Source of the DNA: Cupriavidus pinatubonensis
Lineage (GTDB): Bacteria > Pseudomonadota > Gammaproteobacteria > Burkholderiales > Burkholderiaceae
Reading direction: 5' to 3'
Assembly (NCBI RefSeq): GCF_019602855.1
Contig: NZ_CP080767.1
Location: 496,001-560,000 of the forward strand
Length of the DNA stretch: 64,000 nucleotides
The notes beneath the pieces are model-generated. The model was not told the DNA's origin and did no database searches. It was given only the letters and a program-made list of their open reading frames with translations. Numbering within the stretch: position 1 is the stretch's first letter; each line of letters begins with the position of its first letter. The position numbers and the translations under genes were made by a program. This document shows, in pieces, positions 3,998 to 14,730 of the stretch.

Positions 3998-4060
3998 TGC
4001 AGAGGTCGTTGCGCGCTCAACCTCTCTGTTGCGGCGCAGCAACGTCAGCCTGACCATCAG

Positions 4061-12745: not shown

Positions 12746-13087
12746 CAAAGCAGGCCAGACAATCGCTGCTTGCATCGCAAGGTGCAAGGGGAGGAAAGTC
12801 CGGACTCCACAGGGCAGGGTGTTGGCTAACAGCCATCCACGGTAACGTGCGGAATAGGGCCACAGAGACGAGTCTTGCCGCCAGGTTCGCCTGGCGGGAA
12901 GGGTGAAACGCGGTAACCTCCACCTGGAGCAATCCCAAATAGGCAGGCATCGAGGCGGCCCGCTGAGCCTGCGGGTAGGGAGCTGGAGCCGACTGGTAAC
13001 AGCCGGCCTAGAGGAATGGTTGTCACGCGCCGCCGTGCCGCAAGGTGCGGTGACGTGCACAGAATCCGGCTTATCGGCCTGCTTTGC
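12746..13087 (+). ncRNA. rnpB: RNase P RNA (bacterial type A)
   Basis: About 340 bases. The conserved core GAGGAAAGTCC (12791-12801) and the 3' core ACAGAATCCGGCTTAT (from 13059) are both present, as is the P4-side region around GAAACGCGGTAACCTCC. The ends GCAAAGCAGGCC and GGCCTGCTTTGC pair as helix P1, which sets the limits. The RNA is the catalytic part that removes 5' leaders from pre-tRNAs with the RnpA protein. A possible -10 (TAGACT, 12732-12737) lies just upstream. A dyad at 13102-13130 terminates it. Confidence 0.95.
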
Positions 13088-13101
13088 GCTTGTCTTCCCA
13101 G

Positions 13102-13140: not shown

Positions 13141-13563
13141 TCAGCCTTCGACGATTTCCAGCGTGTGCGTGATTTCCGCGGTCTTGGCCAGCATGATGGA
13201 CGCCGAGCAGTATTTCTCGTGCGACAGCTTGATGGCGCGCTCGACCGTGGCCGGGTTCAGGTTCTTGCCGGTCACCACGAAGTGGAAGTTGATGCGCGTG
13301 AAGACCTTCGGATCTTCGCCGGCGCGTTCGGCTTCGAGCCTGACGTCGCAGCCGGTCACTTCCTGGCGCCCGCGCTTGAGGATCAGGACCACGTCATAGG
13401 CGGTGCAGCCGCCGGTGCCCAGCAGCACCATCTCCATCGGGCGCGGTGCCAGGTTATGGCCGCCACCTTCCGGGGCGCCGTCCATGGCGACGATATGGCC
13501 GCTGCCGGTCTGGGCCACGAAGCTCATGCCGTCGGCGCCCATCCATGTCACTTTGCATTCCAT
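13141..13563 (-). CDS. OsmC family protein (YhfA-like)
   Basis: 140 residues with the single OsmC fold. The two conserved redox cysteines are C53 (LLGTGGCTAYDV) and C119 (SHEKYCSASIML). OsmC/Ohr proteins reduce organic hydroperoxides with these thiols; the short YhfA-like branch, which this resembles, has a less certain substrate. It is cytoplasmic, with no signal sequence. It is a single gene, converging on rnpB and facing away from the sRNA region. Confidence 0.9.
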   Translation of the reverse strand: MECKVTWMGADGMSFVAQTGSGHIVAMDGAPEGGGHNLAPRPMEMVLLGTGGCTAYDVVLILKRGRQEVTGCDVRLEAERAGEDPKVFTRINFHFVVTGKNLNPATVERAIKLSHEKYCSASIMLAKTAEITHTLEIVEG

Positions 13564-13828
13564 TTTGTTCTTTCCTGTCGTCTGAGTTGTGTGTATTCGG
13601 GCGCAAGCGCGGGATCTCGCATCTTGCTTTTTCTGGGATACGACATCGTAAAGCCTCGGGCGCGGATGCCGATAACCCTGAAGAAACTGAGGGTTTCTTC
13701 TAATGTGTCAGTGGCGTGACATCATTTTTTGCAGATCAACTCATTGATTTTAAAGGAAAATGATGGCTATCTCGTGGGGTGCGAGTCTTCCCATGATGTG
13801 GAATCGCATTTCGCAGTGCAAATTTCGC
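13564..13828. other. Gene-free stretch upstream of the OsmC gene
   Basis: AT-richer than its surroundings (for example 13735-13770 and 13800-13830). It must hold the OsmC gene promoter, on the minus strand, but I could not settle on boxes. An open frame from 13729 runs through it and through the sRNA but has no family features or ribosome-binding site. No repeat or RNA gene is recognised before the promoter at 13829. Confidence 0.5.
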
Positions 13829-13856
13829 TTGCATCAGGGATTACCCCATGTATAAT
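13829..13856 (+). promoter_or_regulatory. Sigma70 promoter of the small RNA
   Basis: TTGCAT (13829-13834), a 16-base spacer and a perfect TATAAT (13851-13856). The start point would fall at about 13862-13864. It has one of the best -10 boxes in the window and no open reading frame with a ribosome-binding site follows, which fits an RNA gene. Confidence 0.7.
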
Positions 13857-13861
13857 TCCAA

Positions 13862-14021
13862 TCATTGAACGACGGCGCAGACAGCGCGCCAGAGTGCGAA
13901 AGCGAAGCCCCCGGTCAAGCTCTCCGCACCGCCCGCAAGAACACCGTCGGTCTCCCAGTGTCTCCTCCACCCTCCTCCTTTGGTGGATTCAAACCCAGGC
14001 CAAACCGCCTGGGTTTTTTTT
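13862..14021 (+). ncRNA. Probable Betaproteobacteria toxic small RNA (anti-Shine-Dalgarno sRNA)
   Basis: An RNA of about 160 bases bounded by a strong promoter and an intrinsic terminator. CGACGG (13870-13875) can pair with CCGTCG (13944-13949) to close a 5' structured domain. A pyrimidine-rich linker follows with CTCCTCC (13962-13968) and CCTCCTCCTTT (13971-13981). The last eight of these, CCTCCTTT (13974-13981), repeat the anti-Shine-Dalgarno end of 16S rRNA. The terminator hairpin closes the RNA. Two structured parts joined by a single strand complementary to ribosome-binding sites is the published description of the Betaproteobacteria toxic small RNA (Rfam RF02278, found as an unclonable region). 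Family membership is from memory of that description; limits are approximate. Confidence 0.65.
13991..14021 (+). terminator. Intrinsic terminator of the small RNA
   Basis: AAACCCAGGC, a short loop and GCCTGGGTTT followed by T8 (14014-14021). A strong, canonical terminator that ends the sRNA before the rplM promoter. Confidence 0.9.
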
Positions 14022-14111
14022 CGCCCCTGTCTGGCGAGTGCATCGGGCGCCACGTTATCTCCGCATCAGCGTCCGAGTCGTGGCGAACTTGACGAAATCC
14101 CTTGACTTTGC

Positions 14112-14141
14112 TTGTGTCCAGCTCGCGTACGACAGTATAAT
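14112..14141 (+). promoter_or_regulatory. Promoter of rplM-rpsI
   Basis: A perfect TATAAT at 14136-14141 with TTGTGT at 14112-14117 (18-base spacer). A better -35 sequence, TTGACT at 14102, is 28 bases away and too far. It leaves a leader of about 155 bases before the rplM ATG. Confidence 0.6.
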
Positions 14142-14147
14142 CTACGG

Positions 14148-14301
14148 CTTTTCCGCCATGCCCGCGGAAAGAGAAGCAGGGAGAGCCTGCGAAGACAAGC
14201 AGGAAGGCCAGGTCCACAGGATCGGCCGACGAGACTTGCAGGGGCGAGTACAAGCCTTCGCGAGTCAGTATCGGGCAGTTCTCTAATAGTCAGGAAAAAT
14301 C
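14148..14301 (+). other. Structured 5' leader of rplM-rpsI
   Basis: TTTCCGC (about 14150-14156) and GCGGAAA (about 14164-14170) form a tight 7-bp hairpin near the start of the leader; the rest is purine-rich and may fold further. Ribosomal protein L13 controls its own operon by binding the leader in E. coli, so a similar control is plausible, but this leader has not been compared with that structure. Confidence 0.4.
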
Positions 14302-14730
14302 ATGAAGACCTTTTCCGCCAAGCCTGCAGAGGTAAAGCGCGACTGGTACGTGATTGACGCGACGGACAAAGTCCTCGGCCGTGTCGCCAGCGAAGTGGCA
14401 CGCCGTCTGCGCGGCAAGCACAAGCCGGAATTCACTCCGCACGTCGACACGGGTGATTACATCATCATCGTCAATGCAGCCAAGCTGCGTGTCACGGGTA
14501 CCAAGGAAACGGACAAGAAGTACTATCGCCATTCGGGTTACCCGGGCGGTATCTACGAAACGACGTTTGGCAAGATGCAGCAGCGTTTCCCGGGCCGTGC
14601 CCTGGAAAAGGCTGTCAAGGGCATGCTGCCGAAGGGTCCGCTGGGCTACGCGATGATCAAGAAGCTGAAGGTTTACGCCGAAGCCGAGCATCCGCATGAA
14701 GCGCAGCAGCCCAAGGCGCTGGAAATCTAA
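14302..14730 (+). CDS. rplM: 50S ribosomal protein L13
   Basis: 142 residues, the same length as E. coli L13. It opens [19 protein letters not shown] and carries the family signature around [16 protein letters not shown] near the C-terminus. An early assembly protein of the large subunit that binds 23S rRNA domain II. It is followed 12 bases later by rpsI, with GGAGG in between as the rpsI ribosome-binding site. Codon choice looks like that of highly expressed genes (for example mostly AAG lysine and CGT/CGC arginine). Confidence 0.98.

Follow-up and report, generated by a model that had tools for sequence, protein, structure and literature searches.

Organization of the locus

We analyzed a 64,000-nucleotide stretch of Cupriavidus pinatubonensis DNA (hereafter, the window), in which a putative small RNA gene lies between an osmC-like gene on the minus strand (13141-13563; OsmC domain, Pfam E 2.1e-18) and rplM on the plus strand (14302-14730, recognized as an ORF). 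The latter is a neighbor and not part of the RNA, all features of which are on the plus strand. A comparison of the window with Rfam 15 using cmscan yielded two matches over the cut-off, i.e., a bacterial RNase P RNA of class A (12747-13089, 250.9 bits) and an RF02278 element at 13959-14022. The latter spans the full length of the model (positions 1-64) and scores 72.7 bits (E 9.4e-13) against a curated cut-off of 50, delimiting a predicted mature small RNA of ~64 nt. RF02278 is the family of Betaproteobacteria toxic small RNAs (Kimelman 2012, as named in PMC4603805 and PMC5688073), for which growth inhibition upon cloning in E. coli has been reported. The original prediction had assigned the region to this family, and the model match bears it out.

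The element opens with a Shine-Dalgarno (SD)-complementary strand, UGUCUCCUCC (13959-13968), which includes CTCCTCC (13962-13968) and whose last three nucleotides are also paired in hairpin 1; the single-stranded linker is therefore UGUCUCC, directly 3' of the 5' domain. Hairpin 1 (13966-13987) folds with a stem of 13966-13971 and 13982-13987 and the loop CUCCUCCUUU at 13972-13981, and its pairs are invariant in 29 distinct sequences from the genus. The SD-complementary parts of the RNA are thus the strand UGUCUCC(UCC) and this loop, inside which lies CCTCCTTT (13974-13981), presumably the 3' end of 16S rRNA; the one pattern tried for that end in the C. pinatubonensis genome matched no copy. 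Both CTCCTCC and CCTCCTTT had been predicted within a linker, and both are present, but CCTCCTTT forms part of the hairpin 1 loop. An intrinsic terminator, likewise predicted, was located by a terminator scan as a stem at 13991-14016 followed by a T run (13991-14022 in total). The two hairpins of the family are hence hairpin 1 and the terminator, accompanied by the SD-complementary strands, whereas the 5' domain is not one of them and falls outside the Rfam model, which covers 13959-14022 only. The fold of 13959-14021 has a z-score of -4.68, with none of 200 shuffles equally stable, and that of the whole 159 nt has a z-score of -2.43 (3 of 200 shuffles).

The putative promoter (13829-13856) consists of TTGCAT at 13829-13834, a 16-bp spacer, and TATAAT at 13851-13856, and TTGC and TATAAT are kept in nearly all aligned loci of the genus. 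Its -10 element is perfect, and its -35 element matches 3 of the 6 consensus positions. Although the predicted elements are there, calling this promoter strong was an overstatement, given the weak -35 element and the fact that a consensus scan of 13560-14310 called no sigma-70 promoter. Upstream of the -35 element, two tandem imperfect palindromes, TTCCCATGATGTGGAAT and ATTTCGCAGTGCAAAT (13788-13823), are conserved in Burkholderiaceae orthologues and represent candidate regulator-binding sites. Column conservation was assessed across promoters, 32 distinct ones from Cupriavidus and 36 from other Burkholderiaceae, that had been aligned on the second box, so that only the conservation of the first box is independent.

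From a putative transcript start at 13863, a 5' leader extends to 13958 and is predicted to form a stem-loop closed by CGACGG (13870-13875) and CCGTCG (13944-13949), so that the predicted pairable 5' domain is indeed present. By analogy with the Bordetella RNA S17 (see below), this domain is probably removed by processing through RNase E. We folded 11 single sequences picked from different genera (ten loci plus the window RNA). In all 11, a stem-loop in the leader precedes a largely unpaired strand, which is followed by hairpin 1 and the terminator; 2 or 3 weak pairs touch the UGUCUCC strand or its edge in 5 of them. Leader length varies between 27 and 98 nt, that of B. lata being 31 nt, and leaders of distant genera are alike in their first bases only (CAUUG in Burkholderiaceae). 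The closing stems differ as well, being GGUUGUCGCG/CGGCAACC in Burkholderia, GAUUGUCG/CGACAAUC in Trinickia, and CGACGG/CCGUCG in Cupriavidus. Within the genus, the closing helix is nearly invariant, with a G-C to G-U change in 3 sequences and with two pairs that are each broken once, and the genus alignment therefore lends the 5' domain no compensatory support. Changes on both sides were observed for 3 of the 27 consensus pairs in this alignment, all of them in the terminator.

Conservation of the RNA and its neighbors

The C. pinatubonensis genome holds five RF02278-like matches with E < 0.001, two of which exceed the cut-off. A match of 66-73 bits was found in 34 of 35 relatives of the same genus, the exception being a genome that is 54% complete, and across the family the cut-off is exceeded in 104 of 120 genomes. 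We read 30 loci of the genus, i.e., those of 29 of the 34 matching relatives and our own. The osmC gene is on the 5' side in all 30, and rplM is on the 3' side in 28; of the remaining two, one contig ends, and the other locus (L033) yielded no rplM. The 5' strand is invariant in all 30 loci, as is GTGTCTCCTCCACCCTCCTCCTTTGGTGGATTC; the variable positions fall in most of the leader and in part of the terminator stem.

So that the choice of loci would not depend on the RNA itself, we also selected them by rplM only. This gene is present in 119 of the 120 genomes searched, and the best-scoring 30 loci, which come from closer relatives, were read. The core comprising the strand and hairpin is identical in 28 of these 30, has a shorter loop in one, and is decayed in one. 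In the decayed locus (L096, genome G081), which has no RF02278 match, osmC and rplM are kept and PhaR is present in the genome, but what is left of the core is a fragment resembling its first 18 bases. Retention of the tract together with its flanking genes had been proposed as a check, and these loci provide it; as judged from the alignments, the SD-complementary part is the conserved part of the RNA. The RNA also occurs between osmC and rplM on a contig titled Klebsiella pneumoniae MAG (L170; 72.5% RplM identity), which is probably misassigned Burkholderiales-like DNA.

Relationship to S17 and NcS27

A pattern scan of named genomes returned at least 80 loci, which constitute a sample whose core is largely dictated by the search pattern. 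Among the 80 loci listed, rplM lies no more than 800 nt downstream in 43; osmC is close on the 5' side in 46 and ~1.1 kb upstream in 18; neither neighbor was found despite sufficient room in 2; and in the rest one neighbor is missing in the stretch or cut by its end. The ~1.1-kb class consists of Bordetella, Achromobacter, and relatives. The intervening ORF, inspected in four of these loci, is a COQ7-like frame in two and a longer antisense frame in two, and in the one locus scanned (L122) it was identified as COQ7 (Pfam E 9.7e-44). In B. pertussis, S17 adjoins coq7 (PMC11722255). Because the osmC-side position and the core are shared, the window RNA is, by position and core sequence, an orthologue of Bordetella S17.

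The window RNA is probably also orthologous to Burkholderia NcS27. In B. lata, B. metallica, and B. aenigmatica the RNA lies between osmC and rplM, which fits the reported position of NcS27 between BCAL3348a and BCAL3349 (PMC4603805). For both groups, the osmC-side position and the identical core were observed in loci from relatives of B. cenocepacia J2315 and B. pertussis Tohama I.

S17 has been described as a 190-nt RNA that RNase E cuts to a stable form of 67 nt, and as an Hfq-dependent regulator that directly represses BP2158 (PMC11722255). According to the same paper, the genes that rise in the absence of S17 number 92 in its abstract and 91 in its Results, and 70 of them have complementary sites in their start regions. 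Overexpression of NcS27 reportedly slows growth (PMC5688073) and affects amino acid and carbohydrate genes (PMC5688073, PMC10987360). In exponentially growing E. coli BL21, the short form S17S showed no toxicity (PMC11722255), and the label "toxic" is therefore not general.

Predicted targets and proposed mode of action

The C. pinatubonensis genome contains 40 copies of GGAGGAGACA, which is exactly complementary to the 5' strand, versus 1 for the reversed control, an excess that is partly due to GGAGG being a ribosome-binding site and for which this control corrects incompletely. We examined 30 of the 40 sites; 2 are sRNA genes and 3 are repeat copies, leaving 25 distinct sites. The complement is enriched at start codons: 18 of the 25 lie -1 to +5 nt from an ATG that opens a reading frame of 100 aa or more, and the other 7 have no suitable start alongside. 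A Pfam scan of the first 300 residues of all 18 target proteins revealed that half of the predicted targets are transport genes (four TctC solute receptors, four MFS transporters, and one periplasmic binding protein). These are joined by oxidoreductases (two short-chain dehydrogenases, one GMC oxidoreductase, and one FAD monooxygenase-like protein), an AMP-binding, acyl-CoA-synthetase-like enzyme, and a phenol-degradation-type outer membrane protein, whereas a beta-lactamase-family protein, a DUF1254 protein, and a YCF48-like protein are not obviously metabolic. The start regions of 17 of the 18 pair with the RNA within the strongest 4% of random 100-mers (L330 ranks at 11%), as is expected because the sites were picked for complementarity.

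Collectively, these data are very probably best explained by a gene for a processed RF02278 sRNA, the orthologue of S17 and probably of NcS27, that blocks the translation starts of uptake and catabolic genes in trans. A transcript of ~160 nt starting near 13863 would be cut by RNase E just before 13959, as surmised from the orthologue. The resulting stable RNA of ~64 nt, together with Hfq, would use its 5' strand or its loop to pair with the SD regions of many mRNAs and block translation of solute receptors, transporters, oxidoreductases, and the acyl-CoA-synthetase-like enzyme. The net effect would be that nutrient uptake and catabolism are damped in growth arrest or carbon surplus. All regulation, here and by PhaR as described below, is inferred from sequence.

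The original prediction had suggested a link with translation control from the place of the RNA before a ribosomal-protein operon. A link to rplM is unsupported, since its start region is predicted to pair more weakly than most random sequences, the RNA has its own terminator, and in Alcaligenaceae loci the orthologue and its core are kept while rplM is absent from the stretch examined. Pairing with the rplM start region is matched by 0.925 of random 100-mers, and this target was rejected; for the rplM leader 0.227 of random 318-mers pair equally strongly, and rpsI does not stand out either (0.131 for its start region). Could the element instead be a cis-acting leader or attenuator, with its terminator stopping transcription into rplM under some condition? 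Its conserved place before rplM, seen in the 43 of 80 listed loci, would suit such a role, but the retention of the core in Alcaligenaceae without rplM and the lack of unusual pairing with the leader or start make it very unlikely.

That the RNA sequesters many messages at once, as had also been proposed, fits the distribution of predicted sites. The companion idea of a decoy, in which a mimic of the anti-SD end of 16S rRNA titrates mRNA leaders or initiation factors generally, is unsupported and seems improbable to us. It would account for the invariance of the loop, which holds CCUCCUUU, a sequence that we take to be the 16S 3' end. Against this, the 5' strand UGUCUCC is equally invariant, the exact complement of that strand marks a limited gene set, half of it transport genes, and S17 affects a subset of genes (PMC11722255). 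A 5' domain that encodes a peptide, with the RNA as its mRNA, is likewise a very unlikely reading. A 32-aa frame has been predicted or reported in S17 (PMC11722255), but the window leader has no ATG, indels between the leaders of close species have lengths other than multiples of three, and across genera the leaders resemble one another in their first bases only; a leader-encoded small protein was rejected on the indels and the missing ATG.

Matches to the PhaR operator at promoters of the family

The consensus operator of PhaR in Ralstonia eutropha (Cupriavidus necator) is YTKNTGCRNYGCANMAR (PMC12849132), and the motif of the Herbaspirillum homologue is TG[N]TGC[N]3GCAA (PMC3206438). In many orthologues of the window RNA, the -35 element lies inside CTTGCRNYGCACAA. 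The window's own promoter region (13701-13870) yielded no such operator, the best match having 4 mismatches. Among paralogues, we sampled 80 RF02278 copies away from rplM in Cupriavidus relatives, which have 77 distinct promoters, and found the operator with 0 mismatches in 38 of the 77 compared with 0 of 2513 control windows. The controls were windows of equal length from the same loci, one of which had one mismatch and two of which were unreadable. In all 38 promoters the site is 35 bases from the core, and all are of one type, relatives of the C. pinatubonensis copy at C2:3605681; being of one type and one genus, they are related and do not represent 38 independent events. No such site is present in the remaining 39 promoters, whose best matches have 2 to 6 mismatches. 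Across the 38, the palindrome is near-invariant and the bases upstream are close to random, and because these upstream bases have diverged, the pattern argues for selection on the palindrome. Its left half coincides with the -35 box, which may be conserved for its own sake; the right half is the informative one.

In the C. pinatubonensis genome, this type is represented by a stand-alone, apparently leaderless RF02278 paralogue at C2:3605646-3605741 (L002, L227; 53.8 bits), with a perfect PhaR consensus over its -35 element and spacer.

A second promoter type was seen in the best 30 family-level copies from outside the genus. The best match to the operator is at -37 or -38 in 26 of these 30 (14 with 1 mismatch, 7 with 2, and 5 with 3), and in the other four a match elsewhere scored equally well or better. 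In orthologues of the window RNA, TGCRNYGCA occurs in 56 of 75 upstream windows versus 60 of 2861 control windows; 5 of the 80 listed orthologue loci had too little upstream sequence to be counted, and three Ralstonia matches fall inside the leader. The motif was not found in the orthologues of Burkholderia (0 of 5), Trinickia (0 of 2), Oligella (0 of 1), and Aquabacterium (0 of 1), and it was found in 1 of 8 from Cupriavidus. Genome-wide, C. pinatubonensis has 10 perfect PhaR-consensus places, and 160 when one mismatch is allowed, as compared with 65 for the reversed pattern. Two of the 10 perfect places precede the phasin gene described below, one belongs to the stand-alone paralogue, and the other 7 have, to our knowledge, no PHB link. 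One perfect place in the window (4026-4042) is between two ORFs, the downstream one of which resembles, by eye, an amino-acid-transporter binding protein.

A double-hairpin element behind a phasin gene

A phasin gene (Phasin_2) of the C. pinatubonensis genome is preceded by two perfect PhaR sites, at distances of 206 and 150 nt, and ~150 nt behind the stop of this gene is a match at C2:1432653-1432725 (30.7 bits), which we call RF02278-like because its score is below the RF02278 cut-off. The region as a whole (C2:1432653-1433658; L005, L376) thus comprises a phaP1-like phasin gene that has two PhaR sites upstream and a double hairpin in its 3'UTR. We then selected loci by the phasin only and read the best 30 of 59 matching genomes (60 searched). 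Among these 30, two perfect PhaR sites lie upstream in 29 and one in the remaining locus; TGTCTCCTC is found 115 to 150 nt after the stop in 25 and was not found within the searched stretch in 5. The 25 elements comprise 24 distinct sequences, all of which fold into two hairpins when folded from UGUC, with UGUCUCC fully free in 23; given six more upstream bases, two of four tested elements prefer another fold. On these predicted structures, the best-known PhaR-controlled transcript of Cupriavidus appears to end in a double-hairpin RNA.

Further RF02278-like types

Other types of the element were noted in passing. One relative (G029) has five nearly identical RF02278-like copies on smaller contigs (L291-L295; 39.3 bits, under the cut-off). 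Two of these (L292 and L293) have a Mutator-family transposase upstream and share sequence that extends 1.7 kb to the left, and the copy therefore seems to be borne by a mobile element. A type of ~47 bits (L273-L283) has a GC-rich inverted repeat before it; since the element in L273 is 55 nt behind a xanthine/uracil-permease-family gene, this type may be 3'UTR-derived. A further type (L003, L284, L288-L290, and L309-L312) lies, by eye, just behind a coding end and has no evident promoter.

A putative RNA arm of the PHB storage switch

Cupriavidus is a standard PHB-making host. We propose, with moderate confidence, that the RF02278 RNAs of Burkholderiales form the RNA arm of the PHB storage switch, in which they would be repressed by PhaR and storage would throttle uptake. 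PhaR, acting through an operator over the -35 element of several promoter types, would repress these RNAs and would leave the DNA when PHB granules form. In Cupriavidus, the PhaR-controlled phaP1 itself would contribute a further double-hairpin element from its 3'UTR. Once carbon is stored, the double-hairpin RNAs would accumulate and keep solute receptors, transporters, and catabolic enzymes from being translated. The window copy would then be a member that lost its PhaR site and kept another operator pair. The authors of the S17 study postulate an unknown repressor (PMC11722255), for which PhaR, or something acting through its site, is a candidate; those of the B. cenocepacia study state that the regulator of accumulation of their sRNAs is unknown (PMC5688073).

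At the level of DNA motifs, the operator evidence is strong. The natural comparison offered by genomes that lack PhaR is mixed. In one genus (g45), the single PhaR-lacking genome is without TGCRNYGCA and 4 of 4 PhaR-bearing genomes keep it; in another (g39), the motif is missing both with and without PhaR. One genome (G060) has neither PhaR nor the motif, and another (G110, 83% complete) keeps the motif while PhaR was not found in it. RF02278 is missing in 13 of 17 genomes without PhaR versus 3 of 103 with it, many of the PhaR-less genomes being reduced. One further search offered no contrast, since PhaR is present in 32 of its 32 genomes.

Published expression data are compatible with regulation by PhaR. 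The levels of ncS03, ncS05, and ncS27 rise 8.0-, 6.9-, and 4.3-fold in glucose medium, in which other sRNAs also rise (PMC5688073). Formation of PHB in that medium is plausible, but the Burkholderia relatives of NcS27 are without the palindrome, so this rise is not specific support for PhaR. A precedent exists in the alphaproteobacteria, where MmgR is negatively controlled by AniA (PhaR) (PMC8401924). In the open-licence literature we found no link of PhaR or PHB to double-hairpin RNAs: the words PhaR, PHB, and phasin are absent from PMC4603805 and PMC11722255, PhaR and PHB are absent from PMC5688073, and passages of PMC8401924, PMC9049629, PMC11332829, and PMC11722255 do not mention such a link.

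The window RNA itself is an expected member of a known family and the orthologue of a published regulator. What is new here is a candidate input for the RF02278 family, namely PhaR; if true, it would directly connect carbon storage with a shutdown of uptake at the level of translation.

Comparison with known systems

With RF02278 as modeled, the window RNA shares a full-length match, two hairpins, and SD-complementary strands, but the model represents the 3' 64 nt only, to which the window RNA adds a 5' stem-loop domain. S17 resembles it in having a TTGCAT -35 element and a 5' leader followed by a conserved short RNA (PMC11722255), at the start of which (S17S) a conserved core of 27 nt has been reported (PMC11722255), and in its osmC-side position, as seen in the Bordetella and Achromobacter loci. 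The two differ in their leaders, in the presence of COQ7 between S17 and osmC, and in that rplM does not adjoin S17. In addition, the promoters of Bordetella relatives have a PhaR-like palindrome at -35, whereas the window promoter is without it.

NcS27 and the other double-hairpin RNAs of Burkholderia share with the window RNA the RF02278 family and the same architecture, and they have a processed long form, as is predicted for the window RNA (PMC5688073, PMC4603805, PMC10987360), although the loci of B. lata, B. metallica, and B. aenigmatica are one base off the window core and have a shorter leader. Two more distant systems can be likened to it by description. MmgR of Sinorhizobium meliloti is an sRNA reported to be under negative control of AniA (PhaR) (PMC8401924), but it is alphaproteobacterial and reportedly acts on phasin and PHB (PMC8401924, PMC9049629), whereas the window family is predicted to act on uptake and catabolic genes. 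The NmsR RNAs of Neisseria, in turn, direct two CU-rich unpaired stretches against the ribosome-binding sites of metabolic genes (PMC5688073), much as we propose for the window RNA, from which they differ in their tandem arrangement.
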